20,507 nucleotides of DNA from a virus. This document shows, in pieces, positions 1,377-20,255 of this stretch; position 1 is the stretch's first letter, and each line of letters opens with the position of its first letter. Made by a program: the position numbers and the translations under genes. Location: positions 1-20,507 of the IMG/VR virus record IMGVR_UViG_3300007734_000441; one strand, 5' to 3'. The notes beneath the pieces were generated by a model. That model did no database searches and was not told where the DNA came from. It saw only the letters and a program-made list of their open reading frames with translations.

Positions 1377-1401
1377 TTTAACAATTGTATATAAAAATAT
1401 A
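1377..1401 (-). promoter_or_regulatory. AATTGTTAAA element, copy 1 (candidate phage promoter)
   Basis: Reads AATTGTTAAA on the minus strand at 1386-1377, preceded by an A/T-rich stretch. Over 25 bases it matches the copy at 18839-18863 with one difference. Here it lies just downstream of the stop codon of the 61-residue gene and upstream of the inverted repeat and terminator, with no start codon nearby. Promoter function is inferred from the full set of six copies. Confidence 0.45.
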
Positions 1402-1587
1402 TTAATTACTTTGTTCATCTTTTGGTTTAATTACTTCTAAAAATTCCTTATTCTGTCTATCAGCTGCTGCCTGAAGTAATGCTCCCATATCCATATTCTC
1501 TAATACAAACATCATTTCATCATGCGTTATTTCCATTGGAGATTTCTTTAAGAGTTCTTCCAAATTGTATTTTTTATTTTCTGACAT
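1402..1587 (-). CDS. Hypothetical small acidic protein, 61 aa
   Basis: ATG at 1587-1585 lies within the end of the 110-residue gene (14-base overlap), as expected for a coupled operon. The protein is helical and rich in Glu, Lys and Met, with no Cys, signal peptide or membrane segment. I do not recognise a family. The last gene of a five-gene cluster (2196 to 1402) of short overlapping ORFs, it is followed by a candidate promoter element and a terminator. Arrangement and strand suggest an accessory phage gene. Confidence 0.6.
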   Translation of the reverse strand: MSENKKYNLEELLKKSPMEITHDEMMFVLENMDMGALLQAAADRQNKEFLEVIKPKDEQSN

Positions 1588-1906
1588 TTTCTTTTAGTTT
1601 AGTTTTAGTAATTTCAACTTCTCTGTTGAGAGCATCTAATTCAATTGTTTGTAATTCTTTTTGTATATGCTGAGTAGGTTTAATAGTTGCTATGTACTGC
1701 CTCATTTCTTCTTCCAACAATCTTTTCTTCTGAGAGTATTCCCATGCTTCTTTCACAGCTTCATTATCTATACCTTCAAACTTTGGTAATGATTCGTTTA
1801 ACCACTTTCCTAATTCTGAGTGTATATGGATAGCATCTTCTCTATCCAGCTCTTTTACTATTGTAAGAAGTAATGTGTTCTTACCCTTTGTTAGATTTAT
1901 TCCCAT
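1574..1906 (-). CDS. Hypothetical protein, 110 aa, coiled-coil C-terminus
   Basis: Residues 1-20 (MGINLTKGKNTLLLTIVKEL) form a short beta-prone stretch. From about residue 35 the protein is a continuous charged helix with heptad-like spacing (EEEMRQYIATI, KELQTIELDALNREVEI). There are no cysteines or catalytic-looking clusters. It overlaps the preceding 49-residue ORF by 26 bases and the following 61-residue ORF by 14. Family not recognised; a small oligomeric or scaffold-type accessory protein is all that composition suggests. Confidence 0.6.
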   Translation of the reverse strand: MGINLTKGKNTLLLTIVKELDREDAIHIHSELGKWLNESLPKFEGIDNEAVKEAWEYSQKKRLLEEEMRQYIATIKPTQHIQKELQTIELDALNREVEITKTKLKENVRK

Positions 1907-2030
1907 TTGTTTCGTTTTTTAATTGTTTATATTTTTCTTGCAATCTTTTTTCTAATTGCTTTTGTTCTTCCAGCTTTGCTGCATAAACTAAATTTCTTGT
2001 ATTTGAATAACTTTTTACCTTTGGATGCAT
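1881..2030 (-). CDS. Hypothetical small basic coiled-coil protein, 49 aa
   Basis: A short ORF from ATG 2030-2028 to TAA 1883-1881. The protein begins MHPKVKSYSNTRN, continues with a strongly helical Lys/Glu/Gln segment (residues 16-40, including EEQKQLEKRLQEKY) and ends in an Asn/Lys-rich tail. It starts one base after the stop of the 54-residue ORF and overlaps the 110-residue gene by 26 bases, so it fills what would otherwise be a gap in the operon. Support is positional and compositional only. Confidence 0.5.
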   Translation of the reverse strand: MHPKVKSYSNTRNLVYAAKLEEQKQLEKRLQEKYKQLKNETNGNKSNKG

Positions 2031-2031
2031 T

Positions 2032-2196
2032 TTATTTTTTTATTATATGTTCAAACATTTTATCAAATTCTTCTTCTGATATACCTGATTTACCAAGCAT
2101 TTTATTTGGTTGTAAAATTTCAATAGAAGCTGAAATAGGAGTTTCCACTTTTGATTCAGGTTCCATATATTTTTCAAAAAGGCTTTGAAAATCCAT
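2032..2196 (-). CDS. Hypothetical small acidic protein, 54 aa
   Basis: ORF from ATG 2196-2194 to TAA 2034-2032. The protein starts MDFQSLFEKYMEPESK and ends in a helix (SEEEFDKMFEHIIKK) with an acidic-then-hydrophobic pattern that could be a peptide-type interaction helix. It starts six bases after the stop of the DUF6291-like gene and ends one base before the next ORF, which supports it as a real operon member. No family recognised. Confidence 0.55.
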   Translation of the reverse strand: MDFQSLFEKYMEPESKVETPISASIEILQPNKMLGKSGISEEEFDKMFEHIIKK

Positions 2197-2202
2197 AACT
2201 TA

Positions 2203-2673
2203 TTATTTTAAAATTGAATCTAATTGACTGTGTATATTATTTAATTCTAATTCAGTATATTTTTTATTTAATCTCTGTTTGACTGCTATTGCTTTACTGT
2301 CTTTATCTATATCTCTAGCTTTATCTTTATCTTTATCTTTATCTTTATCTTTATCTTTAAGGTTTTGTGGGTTAGCTTGGGTTTCCGAAAAACCCACTGG
2401 GTTATTTGGGTTTTGTTGGGTTAATTTAGGTCTACCACCTTGCTTTCCGTTCTCTCTATTTGCTTTTACTTTTCTTTCGTAATTTTCAGATTGTACGATG
2501 AAATCTCTTTTTATAGCAAGAAAAATACCCATAACTAATGGGTCTGTGATAGTCGGTTCTACACCTTTTTGGAATAGACCTATTGATTTTATTAAGATAC
2601 CAGCTTGCTCATCTGATAAGTTATCCATCAATTCAAAATGCGATTGATAGATGATTGTGTGTTTGTTTGCCAT
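2203..2673 (-). CDS. DUF6291-like phage protein with (KD)n repeat
   Basis: Residues 4-70 fit the DUF6291 pattern: an initial aromatic strand (IIYQSHFELMDNLSDEQAG), a helix ending in GLFQKGVEP, then an IFLAIKRDFIVQSENYERK segment, followed by the diagnostic NGKQGGRPK at 75-83. DUF6291 proteins occur in phages and prophages of Bacteroidota and Firmicutes, often near replication genes; a replication-initiator role is often supposed but I do not know it to be proved. Residues 106-118 are six Lys-Asp pairs plus Lys, encoded by a perfect hexanucleotide repeat, forming a charged linker before a short C-terminal helical domain. The gene has a strong Shine-Dalgarno site and probably its own host-type promoter at 2784-2815. 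Confidence 0.75.
   Translation of the reverse strand: MANKHTIIYQSHFELMDNLSDEQAGILIKSIGLFQKGVEPTITDPLVMGIFLAIKRDFIVQSENYERKVKANRENGKQGGRPKLTQQNPNNPVGFSETQANPQNLKDKDKDKDKDKDKARDIDKDSKAIAVKQRLNKKYTELELNNIHSQLDSILK
2319..2359. repeat. Hexanucleotide tandem repeat (CTTTAT)6
   Basis: Six uninterrupted copies of CTTTAT plus five bases of a seventh. On the coding (minus) strand this is (AAAGAT)n and encodes alternating Lys-Asp in the DUF6291-like protein. Because the unit is six bases, slippage would change linker length without breaking the frame. Confidence 0.95.
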
Positions 2674-2680
2674 TTTTATT

Positions 2681-2687: not shown

Positions 2688-2721
2688 ATAATAAATAGTG
2701 TGTTTCCAGAAAAAAGCTAAA

Positions 2722-2748: not shown

Positions 2749-2783
2749 TATCCATATGAACATCTAAAAAACACAAATTTATA

Positions 2784-3005: not shown

Positions 3006-3037
3006 CAAATATACGCAAAACTACTTAATTTTCCAAA
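3006..3037 (-). promoter_or_regulatory. Bacteroidota-type promoter P1
   Basis: Minus-strand TTTG (3037-3034), 20 bases, then TATATTTG (3013-3006), exact consensus, followed closely by the start codon of the 63-residue gene. Spacing and -7 sequence are the same as P2, and both share the surrounding context (TTTGGAAAA... and CGTATATTTGTAT). The duplicated palindromes at 3073-3150 lie just upstream and could bind a regulator. Confidence 0.75.
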
Positions 3038-3045
3038 CTTTTTAT

Positions 3046-3940: not shown

Positions 3941-3972
3941 TTTGGTTTTTTAAGTTATTTTTCGTATCTTTA
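3941..3972 (+). promoter_or_regulatory. Bacteroidota-type promoter P3 (plus strand)
   Basis: TTTG (3941-3944), 20 bases, TATCTTTA (3965-3972): one mismatch from TTTG/TAnnTTTG, with exactly the spacing of P1 and P2. Start expected near 3979, about 14 bases before the ATG of the GIY-YIG gene. It sits in the 56-base divergent gap 3937-3992; I see no clear promoter for the minus-strand gene there. Confidence 0.55.
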
Positions 3973-3992: not shown

Positions 3993-4478
3993 ATGTATTA
4001 CATATATCACATACCTGGCATTAAAATTGGATGTACTACCAATCCAAAGAGTAGAGTTGAAAAAAAACAAGGATATAAAAAATATGAAATATTAGAAACA
4101 CATACTGATATTAATATAGCATCTACAAGAGAAATTGAATTGCAAAAACAATATGGATATCAAATTGATGTAACACCATATTCACAAAGTTATAAATGGG
4201 CTACATCGGGAAATCCATCAGTTAAGCCAATGATAAAAGCAGGAAAAGAATGGATTATGAATAATAAAGAAAAACATTCTGAAAATGCTAAATTAGGTGG
4301 ACTAAAACAAGGACCGATTACAGCTAAAAAGAATGTAGAAAGTGGACATATATCTAATTTAGGTAAGATAAATGTAAATACAGTATATACATGTCCTCAT
4401 TGTGGTAAAGTTGGTAAATCATCTGGTATGTTTACATGGCATTTTGATAGATGTAGAAACAAAATTGTTAAATATTAA
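3993..4478 (+). CDS. GIY-YIG-type homing endonuclease with C-terminal zinc finger
   Basis: Residues 1-60 resemble the divergent GIY-YIG nucleases common in phages: YIYHI (3-7), KIGCT (11-15), R21, then STREIELQKQYGYQID (44-59), where a Glu is expected to hold the catalytic metal. Residues 97-125 contain Gly/Lys-rich repeats like NUMOD3-type DNA-contacting modules (AKLGGLKQGPIT...). Residues 134-154 form a likely zinc finger, CPHC with H150 and C154. The order nuclease, linker, zinc finger matches T4 I-TevI in outline. It lies on the plus strand between minus-strand blocks and eight bases before the sigma gene, typical of a mobile free-standing nuclease. The first YIG-like motif is weak, so activity is not certain. 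Confidence 0.75.
   Translation: MYYIYHIPGIKIGCTTNPKSRVEKKQGYKKYEILETHTDINIASTREIELQKQYGYQIDVTPYSQSYKWATSGNPSVKPMIKAGKEWIMNNKEKHSENAKLGGLKQGPITAKKNVESGHISNLGKINVNTVYTCPHCGKVGKSSGMFTWHFDRCRNKIVKY
4463..4472 (+). promoter_or_regulatory. AATTGTTAAA element, plus-strand copy before the sigma gene
   Basis: AATTGTTAAA spans the last codons of the GIY-YIG gene and ends 14 bases before the ATG of the sigma-like gene. It is the only plus-strand copy and sits in front of a plus-strand gene, so orientation follows the gene as in the other copies. Confidence 0.45.
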
Positions 4479-4486: not shown

Positions 4487-5332
4487 ATGCCTAGGAAGAA
4501 GAATCCAAATAACAACTATTTTAACCAAGAGGTAGAGGATGCCGTATGTGCATACCTTTCTACCGATAACCAAATTGAAAGGGAAAAGCACTTTCGTATA
4601 ATCTATCCTGCCCTTTGTAAGATAGCAGAGGTAATGTACCACAAAGTTAAATTCTCTTATTCCGATGATGATAGAGAAGATGTAATGGCGAACTGTGTTG
4701 CATGGTTGGTAGAGAAAATGCCAATGTTTAAATGTGGTATGGGTACTAAAGCATTCTCATACTATACAGTTACTGCACGTTTCTATTACATTCAGTTAGC
4801 AAATAAGAATTACAATTATTTTAAAAAGAATATCCCACTATCTTCTATGACACATAATTGGGATGTAGAAAATAGTGATAGAGAAGATGAATCAAAAGCT
4901 AATTCAGCTGCTTTATTGCATAGATTTATTGAGTATTGTTACCATAATATTGATATTATGTTTCCAAGCAAATTAAAATCTTATGCCAATATTATTTTAG
5001 ATAATCTTTCAAATTATGAAGAAATAGAAGATTTTAGAAATCGTAAAATACTTCAGTTTATTTATAAAAGTGGTAATATTATAGAAAGGAAAAAAACTAA
5101 TATTAATAAAACACTTAATATAATGATTTCTCACTTAACACTATTTAAGAAAAGATTTTTAGCAGGAAATGATTCTTTAGAACTTTGTAAGAAAGAATAT
5201 CTTACTGAAGAAGAAGTTCAAATAGTAAGGGATACAATTGTTGTTGGAAGAAAGAACAATGGTACTACTGCTTTAGCAAGAAAGTTTGGTGTTGATATAA
5301 AAGTTATATACGATTGTTTAAAACCTACTTAA
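4487..5332 (+). CDS. T4 gp55-like phage RNA polymerase sigma factor
   Basis: Residues 36-115 carry a sigma region 2-like pattern: a helix (RIIYPALCKIAEVMYHKVKF), an acidic helix (DDREDVMANCVAWLVEKM) and MFKCGMGTKAFSYYTVTARF with conserved-looking aromatic residues. The same order (FSGYTQ..., helix, F-D..AF.YiT) is seen in T4 gp55, the late-transcription sigma subunit. Residues 176-225 are helical, and 260-279 (TTALARKFGVDIKVIYDCLK) form a good helix-turn-helix. The protein probably redirects host RNA polymerase to phage promoters. It stands on the opposite strand from almost all other genes, shares a promoter with the upstream nuclease and has its own AATTGTTAAA copy. Its 3' end overlaps the convergent 105-residue gene by eight bases. 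The family match is from memory of patterns, not an alignment. Confidence 0.65.
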   Translation: MPRKKNPNNNYFNQEVEDAVCAYLSTDNQIEREKHFRIIYPALCKIAEVMYHKVKFSYSDDDREDVMANCVAWLVEKMPMFKCGMGTKAFSYYTVTARFYYIQLANKNYNYFKKNIPLSSMTHNWDVENSDREDESKANSAALLHRFIEYCYHNIDIMFPSKLKSYANIILDNLSNYEEIEDFRNRKILQFIYKSGNIIERKKTNINKTLNIMISHLTLFKKRFLAGNDSLELCKKEYLTEEEVQIVRDTIVVGRKNNGTTALARKFGVDIKVIYDCLKPT

Positions 5333-5642
5333 CGTAAAAGGTTCTACCATTTTGTACAATCTTAGTCACATTCTTTAGGACAATTGTACGATAATCACCA
5401 TCAGTTTGTGAATAATAAATCATATAGTTGTAAGGTGCTCTCCAATAGATAGTACCACCCATTGCTCTACCACCAGGCCCTGGTACTGAATACATATCTC
5501 TTACAATATTACTACCATCTAACTTTGTAGCATAGATACGAAAAGGTGTGCCTGTTAAGGTCATCTCTCTCATTTGTTGATAAGAGATTTCAGTTCTTTG
5601 TGCAAACCATTGTAGTTTTTTATATGCAGTGCTACTGTTCAT
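5325..5642 (-). CDS. Small protein of structural operon, 105 aa, function unknown
   Basis: ATG 5642-5640 overlaps the end of the protease gene by 11 bases; the gene ends in TAG. Residues 45-93 carry a distinctive beta-rich stretch: IVRDMYSVPGPGGRAMGGTIYW, then APYNYMIYYSQTDGDYRTIVL. The YSQxDGxYRTIxL pattern suggests a small SH3- or KTSC-like barrel. I believe related proteins occur in other Bacteroidota phages but know no function. As the last gene of the protease block, and convergent with the sigma gene, it may be a minor virion or assembly protein. Confidence 0.6.
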   Translation of the reverse strand: MNSSTAYKKLQWFAQRTEISYQQMREMTLTGTPFRIYATKLDGSNIVRDMYSVPGPGGRAMGGTIYWRAPYNYMIYYSQTDGDYRTIVLKNVTKIVQNGRTFYVK

Positions 5643-7017
5643 ATATTTCTTTCACAACTTTAATATGATTATCCATAAATGAAGTATCGTGCTCCATTCC
5701 TACAATTTTATCAACTTCTTCCATAATATCTTTAAAATCATCAACCAAAAGGACTACTTCTTCGTAATCATGTTGAGATGCAATTCCAGCTTTTAATATT
5801 TCTTCTTCTTTACGGAATACATTATCAGCAGCTTGTGCAGCACTTCTAATCATACCTTCTGTATCTTCATCAACTTCCATTGTTGTAAGATGTTCAAATA
5901 ATGCTGATGCAGTTGGACACATATGAAAATATCTTGTATGATAACCAAATACATTTACGTTTGGTTTCTCAATTGCAAGTGTTGCTTTTCTTTTGTATTT
6001 ATTTTTACCCTTTGCTGCTTCACCAGGGTATGTTGAAGATACTGAAGGTTGTGATTCAGATTCTTCTAATAATCCTAATTCTCTTAATTTATTTCTACTA
6101 TATCCTAACCCAGCTTTACCACCCCATAAAAGAAATGAAATTACTGCACAATCATTTTGTGAATCTGCATTATCATAATATCCTTCAGCTCTACTTAAAT
6201 AGCTGTACATTCTTTTTATAGTTTCAACTGAAATAGGTCTTTTTTGTGCTAATTGTTGTGCACGAACTTTACCAACTGGTGTGGCACATTTGTTACCATT
6301 CTTTTCGTTTAGTTCTATACCTCTCTTAGCGTTATTAGCTACACCATCACCATAATCAGAATAAGATTCCATTTCTACCTTTTTCTTTGTCTTATAGCGA
6401 TTATCTCTCTTAATCAATGCTCTTATCTCAGAAAGGATTAGAAGCGCTTCTTGCTCCTCTAATTCATTTAGAATGTTATCTTCTGAGAATAACATAGATT
6501 GTTGTACTAAGTTATGTCCAAATAAACCTTCTATTGAGAATCCTTTAACCTCACCAGTCTTTACATAGTTATTCCAAATATCCTCATTATCAACCTTAAA
6601 CGTCCCCATCCATGTACCAACCGGAACACTAAGTCCATATACAGCTGATTTATCTTTAGTTCTACTTTCCACAATCCATGACTCAACAAGCGAAATATCA
6701 TCTACTTTATTTTTATGTTCAATAGTTGTATTTGAAACATATTTCTTTTGAAGATACATTTCTGATAATCTCTTAATAGTTTCAGGTTTGAAATAAACAA
6801 AATACTGCTCACCCATACCATCTATTCTTAATATCTTTTTATCAGGCACCAATATAGGTCCCATCACCAATCTTTGTTCATCTGATACTGCTTGGAATTT
6901 AACTTCTTCCTTGTCAAAATAAACAAAATTAGCTTCAATAGCAGGTTCTTCCACCAACGATATGGCAAAAACCTCATCTATATTTTCATCTTCAATTACT
7001 AATTCGTATAATTTCAT
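5632..7017 (-). CDS. XkdF-type prohead protease fused to two extra domains
   Basis: Residues 15-170 match the XkdF family of prohead serine proteases: FAISLVEEPAIEANFV (17-32), QRLVMGPILVPDK (48-60), TIEHKN with candidate catalytic His101, PVGTWMGTFKV, and EVKGFSIEGLF with candidate Ser161. This enzyme trims scaffold and capsid proteins during head maturation. Residues 219-315 form a second domain (YSDYGDGVANNAKRGIELN, KRMYSYLSRAEGYY, ISFLLWGGKAGL) recurrent in phage head proteins of unknown role. Residues 352-460 are a helical domain (FGYHTRYFHMCPTASALF, YEEVVLLVDDF). At 461 residues it is longer than simple XkdF proteins. It follows the tape measure gene, an unusual place for a protease, behind an AATTGTTAAA copy, and ends in TAG. 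Confidence 0.8.
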   Translation of the reverse strand: MKLYELVIEDENIDEVFAISLVEEPAIEANFVYFDKEEVKFQAVSDEQRLVMGPILVPDKKILRIDGMGEQYFVYFKPETIKRLSEMYLQKKYVSNTTIEHKNKVDDISLVESWIVESRTKDKSAVYGLSVPVGTWMGTFKVDNEDIWNNYVKTGEVKGFSIEGLFGHNLVQQSMLFSEDNILNELEEQEALLILSEIRALIKRDNRYKTKKKVEMESYSDYGDGVANNAKRGIELNEKNGNKCATPVGKVRAQQLAQKRPISVETIKRMYSYLSRAEGYYDNADSQNDCAVISFLLWGGKAGLGYSRNKLRELGLLEESESQPSVSSTYPGEAAKGKNKYKRKATLAIEKPNVNVFGYHTRYFHMCPTASALFEHLTTMEVDEDTEGMIRSAAQAADNVFRKEEEILKAGIASQHDYEEVVLLVDDFKDIMEEVDKIVGMEHDTSFMDNHIKVVKEIYEQ

Positions 7018-7025: not shown

Positions 7026-7035
7026 TTTAACAATT
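7026..7035 (-). promoter_or_regulatory. AATTGTTAAA element before the protease gene
   Basis: Fills most of the 20-base gap between the tape measure stop and the protease ATG, ending eight bases before the ATG. If it is a promoter -10 region, the protease message would be leaderless or nearly so. Confidence 0.45.
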
Positions 7036-7037: not shown

Positions 7038-9284
7038 TTATCCATTTGTTCCACCACTAAACGTAGCTGCTCTAGTTGTACGGCGGTCTAAAGCTTGCTG
7101 GGATGTCACATCTCCGCTAATGACGTAGGCTCTAATGGGTCTATTTTGTGCAGCACCAATTGTTTGTGCTATTTGTGCACCAGGTGTTGCTTGTCCTTGC
7201 GTACCAACAATTTGTGGAATACCAGTTTGTGCTCCAGTATTTACACCAGGCACAGTTGGTGCTGCTCCTGCTGATTTAGGTAGATTTGCTCCACCACCGC
7301 TTGAAGGAGTTCCACTATCCGATGATTTAATTTGTTGTATTGCTTTTATACCAGCTGCTACTGATGATGCTATACTCAATGCTGCTGTTGCAGTGTTGAT
7401 AGCAACCCAAGGTAAACCACCGGTCAATGGTGATGCTGCAACTGCTTTCGCATTTGCAATACCAGTGTTTACAATTATCTTGCCAATTGCCGCTGCCTGT
7501 TCTACAATAACACCAGCTATTGCCAATTTCTTATTCTTTCCAGCAATCTCTTTTAAGAACGAACCAAATCCACTTGCTAAATCTAAGTAAGCAGTTTGTA
7601 ATTCTGCTTTAGCTTCCAACTCAGCCATATCAATCTGCTTACGTTCTTCTGCAGCTTGTCTTACAATTTGTGTACGTTGTGCTTCAGTTAGGCCGGCTTG
7701 AGAAAGTAATTGTGCTTCTTTCTCATCTATAATTGCTCTCCTTCTATCAAATGATGTACCTAATGCTTCAGCTTCTTGGTCTAATAACATTAATTGTTCA
7801 TCCAATGTCTGAGTTCTTGCATCTCTACGTGCTTGCTCAGCATCAATTACTATTTGAGTTCTTTGTGCTTCAGTAAGTGCTGTATCTGAAAGAAGTAATT
7901 GTTCTCTCTCATTTATAAGTTGTAACTTCTTATCTAAGTTATCGGATTCGTTTTGTAATAGTTGTTTGTATGAGTTTTCATTAGCAAGAACTTTATCATC
8001 TAATCCTTTCTTAAACTCATCATACTCTTTTTGTTGTTTTTCTTCTCTCTTTTTCTTAGCTTCTTCATCAAACTTTGTATTAATTTCAGCAACATCTCTA
8101 TTGTATGCTTCTAATACAGCTGTTCTATCAGTTATACCTGCTTTCTCTAATGCTGCAATATCTTCATTAAGTTTCTGACCTCTTTTGTATATCTCTTTAT
8201 CTCTATCTTCTAATCCACTTAAATAAGCTTCAGTTAAAATTTTGTTAGCAGCTTCTAAATCTTTTAATCTTTGTTCTTCTAATTTTTTAGCTTCTTCTCT
8301 TGCTTTCTCTCTAGCTTCTTTAGCTTTTTCTGCTCTTTCTTTTGCAGCTTCTTTTTCTGCTGCAGTCATTCTCTTAGTACCTTCTTCAAAACTCTTACTA
8401 GCTTTATCATAGCCAGTAGTTGTAGCATCTACAAAAGAATCTTTAATTGCTACACCAGTTTTATAAACCTCATTACCAATCTTAGCCATTCCACCAACAA
8501 CTGCGGTAGATGCCTCATCAAATCCTTGCTTTATTAAGTCTAAATCAAAAGTAAATACACCTTTAATTATTTTACCTGTACCAGCTGCTACATCAGCAAG
8601 TGTTTTAAATCCAATTACTAAGTTGTTAATTACAAATTTATAAACTGCAATTTGTGCTTCTAATAGGAATTGTAATGCTGCTGCTAATACACCTACTGTA
8701 GTAGAAACACCTTTCATTACCTTATCATTCTCTAAAAGTGCTAATGCGAAATCTATTACAACATTTGCAATAGGTTCAATTACAGCAAACAAACCATTCA
8801 TTATCTTTTCAAATGCTTCGGTTAGTTTGTTCAATTTAGCTTGTCCTTCTTCAGTACGGCTTAGAGATTCTTTAAATGCTGCTATTGCACCTACTATGGC
8901 TAAAACTGCACCTAATGCAACTTTAAATCCTAAAGAAAATTTATTTAATCCAGTATTAAAAGATTGAATACCACTACCAATCTGTCCCAATGGACCTGGC
9001 AATGCGGCTAACTGGTCATCAAACTGACCGGCTTGGAAGTTTACTCTTTCCTGAGTATCATTTAAATCATCTAATTTCTTCCTTAGATTTTCAAACTCAG
9101 CACTACTTTGTTGTCCTTCATCCGCAAGTTTTTGCATTTGAATGGTAGTTTCTCTGATTTGAGTACGAAGTGACTTAAACTTACCGCCCGTTCCTTGAGC
9201 TTCATTACCTAAGTTTTCTACCTGGTCACCACCTTTAACTTCGGTTTCTACTACTACATTATATGTGGTTGTATTATCGGCCAT
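7038..9284 (-). CDS. Tape measure protein
   Basis: At 748 residues this is the longest gene in the window and has the standard tape measure build. A helical N-terminus with coiled coils (41-80) precedes hydrophobic helices at about 119-137, 166-184 and 196-216. A very long charged coiled coil covers 290-560, rich in Lys, Glu and Ala. A hydrophobic Ala/Gly segment lies at 585-650, and a Gly/Pro/Ala-rich tail ends in AYVISGDVTSQQALDRRTTRA, a C-terminus I associate with tape measure proteins of Bacteroidota phages. LTEAQRTQIV occurs at 470-479 and 532-541, a 62-residue internal repeat. Tape measures set tail length at about 0.15 nm per residue, giving roughly 110 nm. The start overlaps the 48-residue ORF by 11 bases. 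It lies after the tail-tip genes rather than before them. Confidence 0.9.
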   Translation of the reverse strand: MADNTTTYNVVVETEVKGGDQVENLGNEAQGTGGKFKSLRTQIRETTIQMQKLADEGQQSSAEFENLRKKLDDLNDTQERVNFQAGQFDDQLAALPGPLGQIGSGIQSFNTGLNKFSLGFKVALGAVLAIVGAIAAFKESLSRTEEGQAKLNKLTEAFEKIMNGLFAVIEPIANVVIDFALALLENDKVMKGVSTTVGVLAAALQFLLEAQIAVYKFVINNLVIGFKTLADVAAGTGKIIKGVFTFDLDLIKQGFDEASTAVVGGMAKIGNEVYKTGVAIKDSFVDATTTGYDKASKSFEEGTKRMTAAEKEAAKERAEKAKEAREKAREEAKKLEEQRLKDLEAANKILTEAYLSGLEDRDKEIYKRGQKLNEDIAALEKAGITDRTAVLEAYNRDVAEINTKFDEEAKKKREEKQQKEYDEFKKGLDDKVLANENSYKQLLQNESDNLDKKLQLINEREQLLLSDTALTEAQRTQIVIDAEQARRDARTQTLDEQLMLLDQEAEALGTSFDRRRAIIDEKEAQLLSQAGLTEAQRTQIVRQAAEERKQIDMAELEAKAELQTAYLDLASGFGSFLKEIAGKNKKLAIAGVIVEQAAAIGKIIVNTGIANAKAVAASPLTGGLPWVAINTATAALSIASSVAAGIKAIQQIKSSDSGTPSSGGGANLPKSAGAAPTVPGVNTGAQTGIPQIVGTQGQATPGAQIAQTIGAAQNRPIRAYVISGDVTSQQALDRRTTRAATFSGGTNG

Positions 9285-10000: not shown

Positions 10001-12019
10001 TTATATACAATCTCTACAAAATCCTGTAAAACCTGTGAGAATACCTGTTGGGTATGCAATATCCCAATATTGGCAATTTATATCATCAATTAACCAATAT
10101 GCATTTGAAACAACATCTGCACCACCAGAATCATAATATAATGTTACTCCACTTTCAATTAATCCAGTAGTTGTCCAAATATCATAGAATGAATAACTGT
10201 AGCAATTTTCTCTTGGAGAAGCAGATGAGAAACTTAATCTATACATTCCAGCATAGATTACAGGATTTCCAATAGGAGTTAATCCAGCTACTGAACCAGA
10301 AACCCCTGTATTAGCTATTTGTAATAATTGGGTAGAAGAAAGAGAAGTTTTAACTTCAAATTTACCTTGTGAAAAGAAATTCTCTTGGTCAACATAATAT
10401 TGTTTTCCATATTCTCTATTTGCTTCTTTAGAAAATTGTTGTGATATATAATCCAAATCTAAGGTATCACCAAAATTAAGTTCGTTTACAGCTAAATTAT
10501 TTGCTGGTATTACTTCAATCTTTTCATCTAAATTAGCATATTTGTTAAAATCCCATCTTCTTCCTTTATTGTACCAATTTGTAAATGGTTCTATAATAAA
10601 TTCATTTCTTACAGTTTTAGATGGATACATTACCAAATTAAATTTCTTTTGTACTGATGTTAAGAAATCAATCTGCTTAATACCTGATGTACCAAATGGC
10701 ATATTTAAAGGTATATTCATTACAAAACCATCACCTAATTGTGCTACTTTAGTAACCTCTAAATAAGATTTAATTTGATTATCAGGTTCTAATGTAATAA
10801 CAACATCACCATTACCTTCGAATGTTTTTAAGAATTTAAATTGAAATTCATAAGAACCTGATTCTAATAACGGAGATATAAATCTTTGTCCAACTTCTAC
10901 TTTTTGTACTTTAGTACCATCTGTTCCATTATATATTTGAATTTCTTTAAAATAATTGTTTATTATAGTTGTATCAATTGTACGAGAAACTGCTGTATCT
11001 TTATTTACAATATAAAATTCAAATTGTGGAACTTTACCTAATCCACCAGCATTTGCACTACCACTCATTTCAATATTAAAATTAATATTACCTCTAAGAG
11101 ATGATGAATATGCTAACGAATAAGTTAAACTTCCTGCCATTTGTCCACCGGGATTCTTTTGAATATTATACCATGGTAGTGGATAAGTTGTACCAGCGCT
11201 TGGATTCCAATTTGTTTGATTTGAACCTGAGAATGGTGCTATTCTAAATAATCCATATGTTTCTAAGTTTTGCTCAGCAAATATAGGATAACGTAAAGCC
11301 CTATTACAAAGTAAGTAAACACCATCTAATCCACCATTATCTATAAATGATGATGAATATGTATATCCTGCTGAATCAAATATTGCATCCCAAACTATCT
11401 TTGCTTTTATAGCTGGTTTAAAATCTTGTACACATAAACCATCGTCTTGCGCATCAATACCAAATTCAGGTGTATCAGGGTTAAATTCTATTCTTTGTCC
11501 ATATTCTGCTAACGGATAAACAATTCCGTAATTAAATAAAGAACCTGTCCAACTTCCAGTAATTGCTGATAAAGAAGCTGTATGGTTGTATATTGATAAT
11601 GAATTTAAATCAGTTAAATAATTTCTATTTATCTCTCTAGCAAATGATGATACTGCCCCAAAGATTGTTGCTTCATATGAATCAATAAATTTATTTGCAA
11701 AAACATTTACTTTATTTAATTGCAAATAACCTTGTGCTAAATAAACTCCACCAAAATCTAAGTAACAAGGAACTTTAATATTAGTTGCGAAAGTATCAGG
11801 AGACTGAATAGAAATATCATAAACGTGCTCAAAAAAATCATTATTTTTCTTCGTCCCAGGTAACGTAATCTGCCTTGTAAAATCGGCAGGAATAATACCC
11901 AAATCAAAAAGCCCTGTAACATTATCTGACAATAGTATATCTTCATCTTTAAAAAGGTCTAAGATGGTATTGTTTGCAACTAGCTGAAATTCTATTCCTT
12001 GCGTTGATAATATTCCCAT
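10001..12019 (-). CDS. Large tail-tip/baseplate hub-like structural protein
   Basis: 672 residues, starting in a TAATG overlap with the preceding tail gene. The N-terminal region (45-70, PADFTRQITLPGTKKNNDFFEHVYD) is a hallmark I associate with a conserved large tail protein of Bacteroidota phages, followed by a beta-rich body (YLDFGGVYLAQGYLQLNKV). Residues 200-235 hold KAKIVWDAIFDSAGY, and the C-terminus is Cys-containing (NCQYWDIAYP and FCRDCI). Likely a tail hub or host-contact protein at the tail tip; receptor binding is possible but not shown. The following 184-residue gene is in the same frame. Confidence 0.7.
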   Translation of the reverse strand: MGILSTQGIEFQLVANNTILDLFKDEDILLSDNVTGLFDLGIIPADFTRQITLPGTKKNNDFFEHVYDISIQSPDTFATNIKVPCYLDFGGVYLAQGYLQLNKVNVFANKFIDSYEATIFGAVSSFAREINRNYLTDLNSLSIYNHTASLSAITGSWTGSLFNYGIVYPLAEYGQRIEFNPDTPEFGIDAQDDGLCVQDFKPAIKAKIVWDAIFDSAGYTYSSSFIDNGGLDGVYLLCNRALRYPIFAEQNLETYGLFRIAPFSGSNQTNWNPSAGTTYPLPWYNIQKNPGGQMAGSLTYSLAYSSSLRGNINFNIEMSGSANAGGLGKVPQFEFYIVNKDTAVSRTIDTTIINNYFKEIQIYNGTDGTKVQKVEVGQRFISPLLESGSYEFQFKFLKTFEGNGDVVITLEPDNQIKSYLEVTKVAQLGDGFVMNIPLNMPFGTSGIKQIDFLTSVQKKFNLVMYPSKTVRNEFIIEPFTNWYNKGRRWDFNKYANLDEKIEVIPANNLAVNELNFGDTLDLDYISQQFSKEANREYGKQYYVDQENFFSQGKFEVKTSLSSTQLLQIANTGVSGSVAGLTPIGNPVIYAGMYRLSFSSASPRENCYSYSFYDIWTTTGLIESGVTLYYDSGGADVVSNAYWLIDDINCQYWDIAYPTGILTGFTGFCRDCI

Positions 12020-13179
12020 TAGAGTATAAGTTTATATCCTTGTCCGAAATCAAAATCAAATGCGTATTGAATTACTTTATCAACTACTCCAGTTTTAAAT
12101 GTAACTGATTCGGTGTTTATAGTAATAGGTAAAAGGTCAGTAGCTGATTTTACCCAATATATTTCTTCTGATACTAATAATTGTTTAAATATCTCATTAT
12201 AATCTTCATCAACCCAATCACTATTTACGCTGATTGATTGTTTAGAATCTACAATATAATTTAAGTTTGAACTATCGTATTGATTGTATGTTAATGTAGG
12301 TGCTGTCCATTGACCTAATTGTGGTTGGTAACTACGTTTTGTTGTTGAGAATGATTGGCGATTTACCATATAGAATGAGAACCAATCAAATTGTCCGTAT
12401 CTATTTTTCCATTTCAATCGTATGTTTGGATACTTTTGCTTACAAACAACCTCAAAATTGATAGGCGTCCCTAATGGGGTAGTATTTGCATAAGCTTGGA
12501 TAGAATAGAACTCTGTATTTGTACTCAAAGGAAAGCCACTTTCCTGAGGTGCCTGAGGGTAGTATTGAACTTGCTGTGAAGATGATACACTACTACTTAA
12601 ATTAAAATTAGCAGTACCTAAATTCCCTGTATATACTAATTTGGTTGGTTGAGTAGCTCCAGTTGTACCAACATAAACACTTCCTAATCCTATATCTTCA
12701 CTTAATACTGATTGAGATACAGGTCCATCAGTCATCAAAGGCCAATGTATTGATTTAGATGAAATTTGCTGACCTATTGGTTCATCAAATATTGCATATC
12801 CATCTACCGCTTTATATACTTCAGATTTTACATGCGATGATGTCACAGGATTTGCTGATGAACCAGAAAGGTATCTAAAATATCCATCTACTGCGAAATA
12901 TTTTATATTTGATGGAACTGCCTGTGCTGAGCCTGAAAGAGATGAATTTAATATTCTACCTACATCAAATATACCAACACGGCTTACGTTTGGATATTTT
13001 ACCATTGTGTATTGAGCCACCGAACCTGAATTGTTTGGTGTACCTGTCCAATAGTATAGGTCTAAATAGTATTGAAAAGATGAGGATAGTACAACATCAC
13101 CACTCTCAGATAATGTAAATATCGTAGGTGATTGCACTAATGAACACGTTGCTGGTGTTTGGTTGTATGATAGAGCCAT
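12019..13179 (-). CDS. Tail protein, probable distal tail component
   Basis: 386 residues, Ser/Tyr/Gln-rich and beta-structured. The N-terminal part (10-80) reads like a beta sandwich (SPTIFTLSE, SSSFQYYLDLYYW, VSRVGIFDVGRIL), and residues 255-271 hold KWKNRYGQFDWFSFYMV, a motif I associate with a tail protein found beside the large tail hub gene in Bacteroidota phages. No catalytic motif. It lies after the tail completion genes and is coupled by TAATG to the 672-residue gene, suggesting that the two assemble together at the tail tip. Confidence 0.65.
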   Translation of the reverse strand: MALSYNQTPATCSLVQSPTIFTLSESGDVVLSSSFQYYLDLYYWTGTPNNSGSVAQYTMVKYPNVSRVGIFDVGRILNSSLSGSAQAVPSNIKYFAVDGYFRYLSGSSANPVTSSHVKSEVYKAVDGYAIFDEPIGQQISSKSIHWPLMTDGPVSQSVLSEDIGLGSVYVGTTGATQPTKLVYTGNLGTANFNLSSSVSSSQQVQYYPQAPQESGFPLSTNTEFYSIQAYANTTPLGTPINFEVVCKQKYPNIRLKWKNRYGQFDWFSFYMVNRQSFSTTKRSYQPQLGQWTAPTLTYNQYDSSNLNYIVDSKQSISVNSDWVDEDYNEIFKQLLVSEEIYWVKSATDLLPITINTESVTFKTGVVDKVIQYAFDFDFGQGYKLIL

Positions 13180-13229
13180 CTAAAATCTTTTATTATTTTA
13201 ACCTTTTTAGAAGGAAAAGTATTTGATGG

Positions 13230-14720: not shown

Positions 14721-16013
14721 TTATAATGATTTATATGTTTCAAAGTTTTTACTAAAATTAGGATTACTTCTACTATAATCAGCTAATGTTTCAGTTTCTA
14801 TATTTGTGTCAACTGCTGATGGATTTTTTTCTATCTCAGCAGGATTCTGTCCATCTTCATTAATTTGTTCTTGTACTTGCTCAGTTGTTTGTCCTGTTTC
14901 TTCAGCAGTTTGTGAAAGAATTACTAATGGAGTAATTTGTTCAAAATACAATTGTGAATCAGGGTATCCACCTTTATCAAATGCTTCAGCTAAGAAATTA
15001 ATAATAAGATTTTGGAATGGATTAATTGTCATTGTTTGAAGAATTGAATAAGCTGTTTTCATTTCTTCTGATTGTGAACTAAATCCGTTAGCTACAGTTC
15101 TAATACCTAACAATAATGGAGATGTAATTCTGTGTCCAACTAAGATTCTATCCTGTGCATATTCTGCAACATATCTTACTTTATCATGTAGATTATCAGT
15201 AGATATTACATCAATTGTAGGTTTTCTTTCAGGATCATCGTTAAATGTTACAATGAATCTTCCAGCATTTCTAGTGCCTGTAAATTTAGCTTCAATCAAA
15301 TCTTCAATTGTATCTCTTTCTTCAGGAGCTGGAATACCATTGTTCATATTCAACATTACAACAGGTAAGAAACCATTCTCAATGTTGTTTAGATGTAAGT
15401 TAGATAATTCAGCCTCTACAAAAGAGAATTGTAAAGCAGGAATCCAATCAGGCAATGCGTAATAGTATTTGCCTGGCGAATAGTTTTTAATCCATAGGAT
15501 TTCCATTTTATCTGACGAAGTACCGAACGCAGGTATTTTTTTCTTATATCTCTGTGCTTTATAGTCACTCCAATCTGAGCAATAATAGAAGTTTTCAATT
15601 TTCGGTTTATCATATAGTTTTTCAGCTCTAAAGTTTTGTGCTGGAGCATGATACATTTTAATTATCTTTGTGTGAGAATCATCCCAATATACTTGAATAA
15701 CTGCGTTACCAAATAGTTTTAAATCAAATGCTACTCTCTTTATTTCCTCTTGTGGAATAATCTTACCTAATGTTTCAGCAAATCCTTCATTCTTTGTGAA
15801 AAGGCCTTTACCATAAATCATATCAGCAATACCTTCTATACAAGCTGCATTTGTTGTTGAGTTGTTGTATGCTTCTATTACATTCTGAAAGAAATCATCA
15901 GGTCCGATAATACCAACAGGCACCCATTGGTAGCGTGTTTTGGTATCTTCAGTAATAACTGGGATTTCTTGCTGAGCAAGATTTACAACACTTAAATTTT
16001 GATTTAACTTCAT
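14721..16013 (-). CDS. Portal protein
   Basis: 430 residues, beginning with a flexible N-terminus (residues 1-30) and then WVPVGIIGPDDFFQNVIEAY, NSTTNAACIEGIADMIYGKGLF (about 51-72), the usual portal entry with a helix followed by a Gly-rich turn. The wing and stem regions follow (IKRVAFDLKLFGNAVIQVYW, LPDWIPALQFSFVEAELSNL, ISPLLLGIRTVANGFSSQSEEM). The C-terminal 60 residues are Gln/Glu/Asn-rich and disordered. Portals form the 12-subunit ring through which DNA enters the head. Two bases separate its start from the stop of the 124-residue gene. It lies after, not before, the capsid gene. Confidence 0.85.
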   Translation of the reverse strand: MKLNQNLSVVNLAQQEIPVITEDTKTRYQWVPVGIIGPDDFFQNVIEAYNNSTTNAACIEGIADMIYGKGLFTKNEGFAETLGKIIPQEEIKRVAFDLKLFGNAVIQVYWDDSHTKIIKMYHAPAQNFRAEKLYDKPKIENFYYCSDWSDYKAQRYKKKIPAFGTSSDKMEILWIKNYSPGKYYYALPDWIPALQFSFVEAELSNLHLNNIENGFLPVVMLNMNNGIPAPEERDTIEDLIEAKFTGTRNAGRFIVTFNDDPERKPTIDVISTDNLHDKVRYVAEYAQDRILVGHRITSPLLLGIRTVANGFSSQSEEMKTAYSILQTMTINPFQNLIINFLAEAFDKGGYPDSQLYFEQITPLVILSQTAEETGQTTEQVQEQINEDGQNPAEIEKNPSAVDTNIETETLADYSRSNPNFSKNFETYKSL

Positions 16014-16014: not shown

Positions 16015-16389
16015 TTATTCTAAAATTATATATTCGTTATCAGTTACATTACTTACATAAACATCTTCCAATGGAATTTGGTTTACATATCCATAATTAA
16101 CAATTGATTGAGATGTAAATACTGAAATACTACCATGCCATATAGAACAAGTTGTATCACTTAAATAAGCTCTATATTGGTCACCAACACTAGCTGATAC
16201 CAATGTAGGAACTTGAGATGCTGTAAATTGTAATTTAGATTCATACGGGTCATATGTGTAATTTGACAATGATGCGGATGAATTAACCAATGTTAGCATG
16301 TCTTGCATATGCAAAGTAAGATTAGAACTTCCAGTAGGTTGTACTCTGAATGTCCATAGGTTACTTCCTGATGAATAGAATGTAAGCAT
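16015..16389 (-). CDS. Small beta-rich structural protein, 124 aa
   Basis: Beta-structured protein with alternating hydrophobic and Ser/Thr residues: SNLWTFRVQPTGSSNLTLHM (9-28), YDPYESKLQFTASQ and VGDQYRAYLSDTT. No membrane span or catalytic motif. Proteins of this size and build (sNlWtf..., beta sandwich) sit near portal genes in Bacteroidota phages, in my recollection, with no known role; a head decoration or neck accessory role is possible. It is the first gene of the neck/tail block: a terminator lies before it, then an AATTGTTAAA copy 21 bases upstream of the ATG. Confidence 0.6.
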   Translation of the reverse strand: MLTFYSSGSNLWTFRVQPTGSSNLTLHMQDMLTLVNSSASLSNYTYDPYESKLQFTASQVPTLVSASVGDQYRAYLSDTTCSIWHGSISVFTSQSIVNYGYVNQIPLEDVYVSNVTDNEYIILE

Positions 16390-16410: not shown

Positions 16411-16420
16411 TTTAACAATT
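16411..16420 (-). promoter_or_regulatory. AATTGTTAAA element before the neck/tail block
   Basis: Minus-strand AATTGTTAAA followed by ATATAAAC; 21 bases before the ATG of the 124-residue gene and downstream of the terminator at 16447-16475. Terminator then element then gene is the order expected of a new transcription unit. Confidence 0.45.
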
Positions 16421-17144: not shown

Positions 17145-18098
17145 TTAATAGTTCTTATGGATAGCGATGTCATTACCGATACCATATTGAGTACCAGCTG
17201 TGTATCTCATCACGATTCTGTAGTTCTGAGAACCATCTAAGTTAGCCATGTCAAGTACTCTTACTTCGTTATGGTCACTCAATAAACCAGTTCCGAAGAA
17301 CAAGTTAGATTTTTGAGCTACTACCATAGCAGAAGAAGCAAGACCAGGACAGAATGCTAATTCAATACCATTGAAGTTCAATGGCTTCTCACCAACGTTC
17401 ATTTGGTTGTTGAATCCGTTTGCACCTTGTGCTCCACCAGCTAATGCTTGTTGATAAGCCTTAACTACGTTAGTAGGTACATAGATTAACAAGTCTTCCT
17501 TACCATAAACAGTTGCTGGAACTGCATCTACTAATGCATTTAACGCAGTTAATACGTTTGCAGAAGTGATAGAACCAGAAACTGAAGAAGTTACAGGAGC
17601 GTTAGTACCACCAGCTACAACTGAAGAAGATAATGCAGTGTAGATACCACCGAATTGTCCGTTAGTTGCAGAGTTACCTCTCCAAATTGATTCTTCAGTA
17701 GCTTGTGCTACTTTACCAGCTACATAGCTGATTAAGAAATCGTTGAAATCCTTTGGAATTTCATCAAATGCGCTATAGCCCAATTGTAATGCTTCCCAAG
17801 AATCAACGAACTCTTGCTTACATAATTCAAGGTTTACTTGAAGTTCTTTTGGTTCTAAGATTCTTTCAGAAAGAGCCACAGTACCAGAAGTTGTGAAATC
17901 ACAAGATGCATCGTTTACAATTGAATCAACTGCAATTCTTTGGATTACACTTTTGAACTTCACATTCGGCATGATTGTGATGTATTGATTATCCAAAGTT
18001 TTAGCTGATAACAATGCTGCTGCGATGTACTTACCTGCGAACTCACCAGCGTAGGTTGTAGTAACGCTAGGCTGTGCAAAGTTTTGTTGTTTTCTCAT
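17145..18098 (-). CDS. Major capsid protein (HK97 fold)
   Basis: 317 residues. The N-terminus begins with VTTTYAGEFAGKYIAAALLSAKTLD (11-36), which I recognise from capsid proteins of Bacteroidota phages. The body contains KFKSVIQRIAVDSIVNDASCDF, SERILEPKELQVNLELCKQEF, EESIWRG (P-domain-like spine helix and following loop), and later VYGKEDLLIYVPTNVVKAYQQAL and FNGIELAFCPGLASSAMV. The C-terminal strand GTQYGIGNDIAIHKN is typical of the HK97 fold. There is no separate long N-terminal delta domain, in keeping with the scaffold-like gene just upstream. It is transcribed with that gene (17-base spacing) and is probably the most abundant virion protein. Confidence 0.88.
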   Translation of the reverse strand: MRKQQNFAQPSVTTTYAGEFAGKYIAAALLSAKTLDNQYITIMPNVKFKSVIQRIAVDSIVNDASCDFTTSGTVALSERILEPKELQVNLELCKQEFVDSWEALQLGYSAFDEIPKDFNDFLISYVAGKVAQATEESIWRGNSATNGQFGGIYTALSSSVVAGGTNAPVTSSVSGSITSANVLTALNALVDAVPATVYGKEDLLIYVPTNVVKAYQQALAGGAQGANGFNNQMNVGEKPLNFNGIELAFCPGLASSAMVVAQKSNLFFGTGLLSDHNEVRVLDMANLDGSQNYRIVMRYTAGTQYGIGNDIAIHKNY

Positions 18099-18115: not shown

Positions 18116-18820
18116 TTATTTATAAAGTCTTGATAAAACAGCTGATTGATAATTAATCAATTTGTTTGTTTTACCCAATTTTATGTTTGATTTTTGTGCG
18201 TTTTCATCAATTGGTGCACCATCCAATTTAGGAAGTTCTTCTTCCTCATCTTCTTCAGAAGGGTCTACAGCTGCCATCTTCTCTGCCTTATCGCCAGGTA
18301 ATGGTTCTGCTTTTACTTCTTCAGCTTTCTTTCCTTCTTCTACAACTTCTTCTTTTACCATTTGGTTGTATTTCTTTTCCAATTCTTCAATACGATATTG
18401 TAGTTTTTGTACTACTGATTTCATATCTTCATCTTCAGGAAGAGGATTTGCGGTTTCTTCAGTTGCTACTTCTTCATCATCACCCATGTCACCACCAGCG
18501 ATTGATTCCATTTCAACAGCTTCATCAGCTGCTGGAGTTTCAACTTCTACGTTTTCTCTTTCAACGATTTTACCGTCTTTAGTTTCTAATTTGATTCTTA
18601 CGTCATTACCTTCAGAATCTTTTAGTACAACTTCGTGCTCACCATCTGGTGCCGGAGTTTTAGTACCATCTTCTGATACAACATCTACAGATTCACCCAA
18701 ATCAAAGGTTGGAGATTCTAAGATTGTTCCATCAGCTAATTTTGCGTATGTCAATTCTACTTCTTCCTTAACCAATGCTAAGTTTTGTAAAATCTTCTTT
18801 AATACTAATGTTGCATTCAT
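18116..18820 (-). CDS. Acidic scaffold-like head protein
   Basis: 234 residues, very acidic. Residues 20-95 form a small beta module (YAKLADGTILES, PDGEHEVVLKDSEGN, IKLETKDGKIVE), a lysine/glycine pattern I know from proteins next to capsid genes in many uncultured phages. Residues 100-130 are disordered, 131-160 form a coiled coil (KSVVQKLQYRIEELEKKYNQ), and 185-200 are a run of acidic residues. The C-terminus (LINYQSAVLSRLYK) is a basic helix of the kind scaffolds use to bind capsid. The order coiled coil, acidic linker, basic helix suggests an internal scaffold cleaved by the protease at 5632-7017. The first gene of the capsid block, it stands behind an AATTGTTAAA copy. Confidence 0.65.
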   Translation of the reverse strand: MNATLVLKKILQNLALVKEEVELTYAKLADGTILESPTFDLGESVDVVSEDGTKTPAPDGEHEVVLKDSEGNDVRIKLETKDGKIVERENVEVETPAADEAVEMESIAGGDMGDDEEVATEETANPLPEDEDMKSVVQKLQYRIEELEKKYNQMVKEEVVEEGKKAEEVKAEPLPGDKAEKMAAVDPSEEDEEEELPKLDGAPIDENAQKSNIKLGKTNKLINYQSAVLSRLYK

Positions 18821-18838
18821 AGTTTTTGTATTTAGTTA

Positions 18839-18863
18839 TTTAACAATTATATATAAAAATATA
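18839..18863 (-). promoter_or_regulatory. AATTGTTAAA element before the capsid block
   Basis: AATTGTTAAA at 18848-18839 (minus strand), ending 18 bases before the scaffold ATG. It matches the copy at 1377-1401 in 24 of 25 bases including the flanking TATATTTTTATATA. The gap 18821-18871 holds nothing else. Confidence 0.5.
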
Positions 18864-18871
18864 GTAATTTT

Positions 18872-19942
18872 TTATGGGTTATATTGTGGGTATGGTTCAA
18901 ATGTTCCCACAATCATTGAAGCTGGTGGAGTAAAAGATGAACCAGTATATTTTGCTGCTCCATTATAAAATCTGAAGTCTTGTACAAATAATCCACTACC
19001 AGTGGCATAATTTGTATTATTCATATTGTTTATTGTAGATCCTGTAAATGGATTTGGATTACCTAATAATTGTACAGTAGTTGCTGCAGCTATACCTATT
19101 TGATTTGTTATACTTCCGCTACCAACCTTAACACCGTTTATGTACATATTAACTACACCAACAGATGCTGATGGATAACATGTAATTGCTGTATGTTGCC
19201 ATACATAAGGAGTTATTAAGCTGCTTGTTGTAGAGTTTATCCTAAAATCAGGGTTTCCAGCATGCAACGCAGAATCATAATAAAATGCAGGACTTCCACT
19301 AACCAATGTTATAGGTGGTGGTGAACCAGCATTTTCTAATCTAGATGCAAATCCTGTATATGCTATAAAAGATGAACCAGTTGGGTTAGTTGCTGTTGTA
19401 TATTTGTTAATCCAAGGTTTATTTGGAGAACCATACCATACAGATTGTGATGGAGATGATAATCCACCAGAACCAATAAGAGAAGCAGTTACATCGTATG
19501 CAAACCAAGCTTCTATAGTCCAAGGTGTATCCTTACTTAAATTAAAATCAGTACCTAATGAAGATGAAAGTTGATTTGAAATTAGTGCCATATTTCCACT
19601 AACAATCAATGATGTTTCATATCCATTAGCAATAAAATTAGTTAAAGAATTAGGTCCAACAAATCCTACTGAACCTGTTGGTGTAATTGTATGAGATACA
19701 TAAGCAGGTTCATATTTTGCAGTATTTTCATTAAAAACAGCATTTCCCTTTAGATAGCCGGATATATCATCAAATTCATTTATTTGATTAAATACATTTA
19801 CATATCCTTGTCTAAAGATAGCTCCAGGTATAGCTAAAACCAATGAACCTGAAAAAGGGTCTGGTCTTCCGAAAGGTACGAAAGGTCTACCAGCTGGCTT
19901 ATTCAAACGGCAATTGGTTACGTTATAGTTTAAATTGTACAT
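18872..19942 (-). CDS. LamG-fold (concanavalin A-like) lectin structural protein
   Basis: 356 residues. Residues 138-152 (DTPWTIEAWFAYDVT), 248-255 (WQHTAITC), 266-276 (MYINGVKVGSG) and 320-346 (QDFRFYNGAAKYTGSSF, then PPASM) are the usual strand signatures of a laminin G-like jelly-roll, a fold that binds carbohydrates. Phages carry such domains on virion proteins that touch the host surface. The N-terminal 60 residues look like an attachment segment (GRPFVPFGRPDPFSGSLVL). Its start lies three bases after the stop of the spike-base-like gene, so the two are probably one unit: a base plus a sugar-binding spike. Confidence 0.8.
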   Translation of the reverse strand: MYNLNYNVTNCRLNKPAGRPFVPFGRPDPFSGSLVLAIPGAIFRQGYVNVFNQINEFDDISGYLKGNAVFNENTAKYEPAYVSHTITPTGSVGFVGPNSLTNFIANGYETSLIVSGNMALISNQLSSSLGTDFNLSKDTPWTIEAWFAYDVTASLIGSGGLSSPSQSVWYGSPNKPWINKYTTATNPTGSSFIAYTGFASRLENAGSPPPITLVSGSPAFYYDSALHAGNPDFRINSTTSSLITPYVWQHTAITCYPSASVGVVNMYINGVKVGSGSITNQIGIAAATTVQLLGNPNPFTGSTINNMNNTNYATGSGLFVQDFRFYNGAAKYTGSSFTPPASMIVGTFEPYPQYNP

Positions 19943-19945
19943 ATA

Positions 19946-20227
19946 TTATTTTAATGCTACTATGTTACCAGCAGTTGATGATGCAGATACCGCTGTAATA
20001 ATACCAGGGATAAATCCACTAGCAGATACTAAAGTGAATACTGATTGGTCATAAGTTTTAACAACTAATGTTCCAATTTCACCAACATATAATCCGCCAG
20101 CCACAAATCCAAATTGAGGTGCGTTAGCAGATGCAGATGCAAATGCAGAACCTGAAATTGGAATTACTGGTACTCCACCAACGAATTGTGGGTTAGTAAT
20201 ATACGAATTTTGAGTTTCTAATTTCAT
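19946..20227 (-). CDS. Head spike base-like small structural protein, 93 aa
   Basis: Residues 39-93 (FGFVAGGLYVGEIGTLVVKT, SVFTLVSASGFIPGIITAVSASST, NIVAL) follow the pattern GLYVG..G.v.v....tf..v..G.ilP..v..V.a..TTA..IvAL that I know from the spike base family typified by Rcc01079 of the Rhodobacter gene transfer agent, which anchors fibre spikes on the capsid. The length (93) is near the family's usual 90-130, and the first 38 residues are Ser/Ala-rich and probably flexible. It sits directly before the LamG protein. The match is by pattern only, so a general decoration protein is the alternative. Confidence 0.6.
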   Translation of the reverse strand: MKLETQNSYITNPQFVGGVPVIPISGSAFASASANAPQFGFVAGGLYVGEIGTLVVKTYDQSVFTLVSASGFIPGIITAVSASSTAGNIVALK

Positions 20228-20245
20228 ATTGAGTTATTTTTATTA

Positions 20246-20255
20246 TTTAACAATT
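20246..20255 (-). promoter_or_regulatory. AATTGTTAAA element before the spike block
   Basis: AATTGTTAAA ending 18 bases before the ATG of the 93-residue gene, the same spacing as the capsid-block copy. It lies in the 47-base gap after the stop of the glycine-rich protein. Confidence 0.45.

Follow-up and report, generated by a model that had tools for sequence, protein, structure and literature searches.

What does the 10-mer AATTGTTAAA do ahead of structural gene blocks, a sigma-like gene and a structured RNA in a 20,507-base virus record (IMG/VR IMGVR_UViG_3300007734_000441; this whole stretch is the window below)? We propose, with a probability of about 0.83, that this 10-mer forms the downstream part of a late promoter, phage-specific and sigma-dependent, which serves the virion gene blocks and the structured RNA in an uncultured family of aquatic phages. 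The six copies reported by a first-pass annotation, which worked from the sequence alone, are exact in every coordinate and strand; five lie ahead of an ATG at measured distances of 18, 18, 21, 8 and 14 nucleotides (nt), within the 8-21 claimed, and the sixth (1377) precedes a hairpin and terminator RNA as described. These copies and one weaker site are:

20246..20255, minus strand: core box AATTGTTAAA, 18 nt before gene 19946-20227, kept in 17 of 28 related contigs
18839..18848, minus strand: core box AATTGTTAAA, 18 nt before gene 18116-18820, the first of the block with the probable capsid gene, kept in 19 of 28
16411..16420, minus strand: core box AATTGTTAAA, 21 nt before gene 16015-16389, the first of the portal block, kept in 22 of 28
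7026..7035, minus strand: core box AATTGTTAAA without upstream box, 8 nt before the ATG of protease-like gene 5632-7017
4463..4472, plus strand: core box AATTGTTAAA without matching upstream box, 14 nt before sigma gene 4487-5332, overlapping the end of open reading frame (ORF) 3993-4478
1377..1386, minus strand: core box AATTGTTAAA, ahead of the structured RNA
13197..13203, minus strand: weak variant GGTTAAA, upstream of gene 12019-13179, kept in relatives

The weaker relative of the motif ahead of gene 13179 reads GGTTAAAATAATAAA. The first-pass annotation had guessed a chance expectation of 0.3 copies; 100 dinucleotide shuffles of the window place it somewhat higher, at a mean of 0.44 with a maximum of 3, and none of them held six or more, so the observed number stays far above chance. 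The near identity of 1377-1401 and 18839-18863 (24 of 25 bases) holds as well.

Related phages provide a broader test. A portal search yielded 80 related loci, oriented by portal, in which AATTGTTAAA occurs 101 times forward and 10 times in reverse, against a mean of 9 in all for permuted 10-mers. These permuted strings form the independent control, which the reversed string AAATTGTTAA does not, as it overlaps the motif itself. Across 28 related phage contigs (about 0.65 Mb), 68 of 87 copies lie no more than 40 nt upstream of a same-strand start and 3 of 87 lie in sense inside genes. The first-pass annotation had named equal frequency inside genes as grounds for abandoning the motif, and it survives that comparison, with 1.95 copies per kb upstream of starts vs 0.005 per kb inside genes in sense. 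In an unbiased screen of 8-mers upstream of starts, TTGTTAAA ranks first (119 vs 2.6 expected) and is present in 28 of 28 contigs. Comparison of orthologues shows the core retained at the same four gene starts although the adjoining DNA drifts, while the distance from core to ATG varies from 5 to 32 nt across the family, and more distant phages carry the relaxed core forms GTTGTTAAA and TTTGTTAAA. Outside the window, a further core copy stands 13-20 nt before a conserved ORF of 59-62 amino acids (aa) downstream of the terminase (G003:890, G006:22611, G010:29097, G013:3004, G019:129).

By its sequence the full element is bipartite, T[CT]A[AC]TA-N15-TTGTTAAAWA, and the 10-mer, though a real signal as first annotated, is its downstream half. 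With the three best-sampled classes aligned on the core, a second conserved box, T.A[CA]TA, appears at -19 to -14 from the core start. T[CT]A[AC]TA followed by TTGTTAA at a spacing of exactly 15 occurs 59 times in the 28 contigs vs 1.8 expected; there are 2 pairs at spacing 16, at most one at any other from 8 to 22, and 5 at 23. Of 61 bipartite matches, 51 have a start no more than 60 nt downstream. This is the arrangement of a sigma-type bipartite promoter, in which two boxes a constant distance apart precede transcription units and are oriented with them. BLAST places the genes behind the sites in separate clusters, so the common spacing is not explained by descent from a single site. Four pairs are found in the window (1377, 16411, 18839 and 20246), all at spacing 15, with these upstream boxes:

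20269..20274, minus strand: TCAATA, 15 nt from TTGTTAAA
18862..18867, minus strand: TTACTA, 15 nt from TTGTTAAA
16434..16439, minus strand: TCACTA, directly downstream of a terminator-like hairpin at 16475-16452
1400..1405, minus strand: TTAATA, 15 nt from TTGTTAAA

At offset 6 past the core, every one of the six window copies has an A, and so do 88% of 93 distinct downstream sequences of the family. No other offset from 1 to 14 scores as high, and the share reaches 100% in the 16389, 18820, 20227, 59-62-aa ORF and sigma classes. This conserved A is likely the transcription start point, which would place TGTTAAA at -12 to -6 and the upstream box at -34 to -29. In mapped flavobacterial host promoters the box lies at -12 to -5 (PMC9723704), and transcription starts 4-5 nt past the promoter box (PMC6847099). 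The geometry of the element is thus that of a sigma-dependent promoter, with the start itself read from base conservation. At the junction of the tape measure and protease genes, the core stands 5 nt before the ATG in most relatives (8 in the window), and similar core copies precede some orthologues of gene 9988 at 5-9 nt. With +1 at offset 6, copies at 5 nt would start on the A of the ATG and yield leaderless mRNA. Copies of this kind, with no upstream box and 5-8 nt from an ATG, may act as weaker promoters whose mRNAs are leaderless or almost so.

The early side of the window shows promoters of another type:

3006..3037, minus strand: host-type promoter TTTG-N20-TATATTTG, before early gene 2803-2994
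3941..3972, plus strand: host-type promoter-like TTTG...TATCTTTA, retained upstream of the 281-aa sigma gene in relatives

The host-type pattern has 4 matches in the window vs 1.8 by chance, so a single match is weak; a sigma70 consensus scan was uninformative (87 found vs 99 expected). Most relatives whose sequence covers the region have the host-type promoter TTTG ... TA[TC]CTTTG, exact or nearly so, ahead of the 281-aa sigma gene, and TAACAAT...TTGTTA comes next; in several, a complete two-box element on the opposite strand points towards the first early operon. In the window, ORF 3993-4478 sits between the host-type promoter and the sigma gene and appears to have been inserted into an older divergent promoter region. 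Because this ORF intervenes and its last codons overlap the 4463 copy, that copy resembles what is left of a regulatory region more than it does a typical late promoter. The ORF (plus strand) is endonuclease-like, with a weak PHROG homing endonuclease match and a GIY-YIG-like start by eye, and related ORFs stand at the same place in L143 and perhaps L145.

Which protein would read the two boxes? The window encodes two sigma-like proteins, both conserved in the phage family:

4487..5332, plus strand: 281-aa protein, predicted sigma2 domain at about residues 12-112 and a C-terminal helix-turn-helix (HTH)-like region (fold model)
1..420, minus strand: sigma gene of the extracytoplasmic function (ECF) type, cut by the contig end, about 180 aa at full length in relatives (fold of a relative and PHROG)

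The 281-aa protein has no Pfam match, weak matches alone among PHROGs and no sigma match in a profile search of Protein Data Bank (PDB) sequences. Its structural model (mean pLDDT, the predicted local distance difference test score, of 79) aligns to sigma2 of 4x8k_A (Z 8.1, 2.4 Å, 96 residues), and almost all of its top structural matches are sigma factors; on this model the protein has a sigma2 domain. Residues 241-278 form HTH-like helices of lower model confidence that are hardly covered by the structural matches. For the ECF-type protein, the model of a full-length relative aligns to sigma2 of 1h3l_A (Z 9.3, 2.4 Å, 75 residues) and to sigma4 of 2h27_D (Z 9.5, 2.0 Å, 69 residues). It matches a PHROG sigma family (10 of 11 members), and its Pfam Sigma70_r2 match falls below the cut-off. 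As modelled, ORF 1-420 and its relatives consist of sigma2 and sigma4 only in about 180 aa, as defines the ECF type, and in relatives G003 and G006 the gene immediately precedes the terminase. The first-pass annotation was therefore right that 4487-5332 is sigma-like, by predicted fold, but with a second sigma-like gene present it is not clearly the reader of the box.

A tblastn search of phage-collection isolates with the ECF-type sigma gave no match. Nonlabens phage P12024S (NC_018271, L189) is a cultured relative by its portal (32%). Its gp33, a sigma-70 region 2 protein, occupies the same place before the terminase and shares 26% identity with ORF 1-420, and a profile search of this phage found no 281-aa-type sigma. 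The top upstream 7-mer of P12024S is CGTTAAT (6 vs 0.27 expected), 5 nt before the ATG at most gene-start copies, and AACA lies 16 nt upstream of it 8 times on the gene strand vs 0-2 at other spacings. The resulting motif, AACA-N16-CGTTAAT-N5-ATG, was seen before structural and terminase-region genes at 167, 3019, 5400, 21269, 23949, 25189 and 26790. Contigs G038-G041 encode a distant 281-aa-type protein and contain hardly any TTGTTAAAT, and the ECF-type sigma was not found in them. These two contrasts weakly favour the ECF type, for which we see about an even chance of being the box reader; the 281-aa sigma is a less probable candidate, and a role for both sigmas or for another factor seems unlikely. 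The 281-aa homologues of G038-G041 (L207-L213) have 225-232 aa and stand in contigs without the motif; in G040 and G041, strings of the TATTTAT/ATTTATA type show a mild excess ahead of genes.

The phage-specific promoter put forward in the first-pass annotation gains support from the position, orientation and two-box spacing of the copies and from their conservation at non-homologous loci. It is further favoured by the variable distance to the ATG, the copy ahead of a non-coding RNA, the contrasting TTTG/TAnnTTTG promoters of the early region, the match of the offset-6 A to the geometry of mapped flavobacterial promoters (PMC9723704, PMC6847099), and the two conserved sigma-like proteins together with the sister motif of P12024S. 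Several observations weigh against it. Some contigs are near duplicates and many are related, so the counts overstate independence. Copies 7026 and 4463 have no upstream box at spacing 15 and are not full elements by sequence, and the 7026 copy is less certain as a promoter. The 5-nt copies need leaderless mRNAs, which flavobacteria do make, though rarely (5.5% in F. psychrophilum; PMC9723704), and the pairing of the motif with either sigma is indirect, seen as co-occurrence in few contrasts (P12024S, G038-G041).

It could be argued that, in a phylum that does not use Shine-Dalgarno pairing, the motif is instead a signal for translation initiation or one in the mRNA leader, as the window copies except 1377 lie 8-21 nt before an ATG, and the orthologues of the 7026 copy and the P12024S copies mostly lie exactly 5 nt before it. 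We regard this as improbable, given a distance that ranges from 5 to 32 nt, a copy that precedes a non-coding RNA, a second box further up at a fixed spacing of 15, and known flavobacterial translation signals (A-3, A-6, A-12/-13; PMC6847099) that differ from the motif. Genes inside the blocks also lack it, as the first-pass annotation had noted with the same conclusion. For the core-only copies near an ATG, a translational role is nonetheless conceivable. Scarcely more probable is an operator role, in which the two boxes would bind a phage activator or repressor, rather than the polymerase, beside host-type promoters. In relatives, the DNA ahead of the 281-aa sigma gene has inverted arms, TAACAAT...TTGTTA, that would suit such an operator, and a two-domain DNA-binding protein is also compatible with a fixed spacing, but the distance between those arms varies (about 7 to 15), so that a dimer operator was rejected, and the copies are single and oriented with the gene. 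The late copies, moreover, have no TAnnTTTG box and show a conserved A at the distance expected of a start point. Chance repetition in an AT-rich genome might be suspected from the one-mismatch count, which is near expectation in the window (16 vs 10), and from the mild excess of TTGTTAA over all sequence (353 vs 305); placement, strand, spacing and conservation lie so far outside it that the comparative data refute it, and its probability is negligible.

If the repeats are a phage-specific late promoter, the sequence suggests that host RNA polymerase with host sigma would start early transcription at the TTTG/TAnnTTTG promoters, and sequence and fold point to phage sigma factors among the products. 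Host core polymerase with a phage sigma could then bind both boxes and start at the conserved A, whereupon the structural blocks would be transcribed. Relatives have overlapping divergent copies in the interval from the 281-aa sigma gene to the first early operon, and these could exert feedback on gene and operon alike. The late timing is deduced from the genes served, which form structural blocks, and from the host-type promoters on the early side. A fuller scheme is tentative: in phages of roughly 35 kb with likely Bacteroidota hosts, a two-sigma cascade might use host promoters first and then the terminase-adjoining ECF-type sigma to read the bipartite promoter, with some late mRNAs leaderless and a non-coding RNA in the regulon.

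Phage-sigma-dependent late promoters are already known as a kind, and what would be new is the two-box sequence variant. T4 late promoters depend on gp55 and have the single box TATAAATA, and SPO1 late promoters, with gp28 and gp33/gp34, have two boxes. The phages studied here resemble both in placing late genes behind a phage-specific consensus, in encoding sigmas and in apparently lacking a phage polymerase. They differ from T4 in having two boxes at fixed spacing, other sequences and a likely Bacteroidota host, and from SPO1 in the sequences of the boxes. As the first-pass annotation held, the motif is unlike both the host TTTG/TAnnTTTG pattern and the T4 late box; the core TTGTTAAA and the second box exclude a T4-type late promoter with TATAAATA as sole box, and a host sigma-A promoter of Bacteroidota was rejected, TAnnTTTG not being found in the aligned late promoters. 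ArpU, RinA and Xpf are late regulators encoded beside the terminase in phages of Gram-positive bacteria, and the likeness, by position and type alone, lies in a small late-gene protein, sigma-like or HTH, whose gene immediately precedes that of the terminase, in another phylum. In its inferred geometry, with boxes near -33 and at about -12 to -6, the element resembles the Bacteroidota sigma-A promoter (PMC9723704, PMC6847099), but neither box sequence matches, and host-type boxes precede early genes instead. ECF-type promoters have AAC at -35 and CGT at -10, with a CGT-box class in F. psychrophilum (PMC9723704). The phage encodes an ECF-type sigma and AACA-N16-CGTTAAT of P12024S, with both AAC and CGT elements, is near this pattern, whereas the window family has neither, with TYAMTA and TTGTTAAA, and was not classed as such. 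P12024S shares two boxes, a GTTAA core, placement before structural genes and a sigma-like gene upstream of the terminase, and differs in its core CGTTAAT, its upstream box AACA, a fixed 5 nt to the ATG and the lack of a detected 281-aa sigma.

An open-access literature search found no paper with the motif string, no transcription study of such phages among its matches and no described phage-specific late promoter for Bacteroidota phages. These phages are abundant, and the two-box consensus allows operons, temporal classes and non-coding RNAs to be annotated. For a phylum with transcription signals unlike those of E. coli, it also supplies a candidate pairing of promoter and sigma, and it allows co-evolution of the two to be tested (TYAMTA/TTGTTAAA here vs AACA/CGTTAAT in P12024S). 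Bacteroidota is the likely host phylum, as judged from the host-type promoter sequences and P12024S. No relative turned up in either of two scans covering 84,980 bacterial and archaeal genomes, so the scans gave neither a prophage nor a direct host assignment. Genes annotated in the window include:

17145-18098: probable capsid gene, in the block headed by gene 18116-18820
14721-16013: portal gene
7038-9284: tape measure gene
5632-7017, minus strand: protease-like gene

The RNA behind the 1377 copy has no Rfam match in a search of the window. It recurs in other contigs:

1271..1371, minus strand: conserved structured RNA, 8-bp stem with compensatory changes, then a terminator hairpin at 1292-1271
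Copies elsewhere: L191 from 2049; L199 from 148; L114 3439-3579, minus strand; L140 1705-1838, minus strand

Over five contigs, four of the 8 stem pairs are changed on both sides, with a conserved loop and terminator. A conserved internal stretch reads TGCCA...TATT.CTCC. Directly 3' of the RNA, at 828-1214 on the minus strand, lies an HNH endonuclease gene (Pfam HNH_3, E 6e-17).

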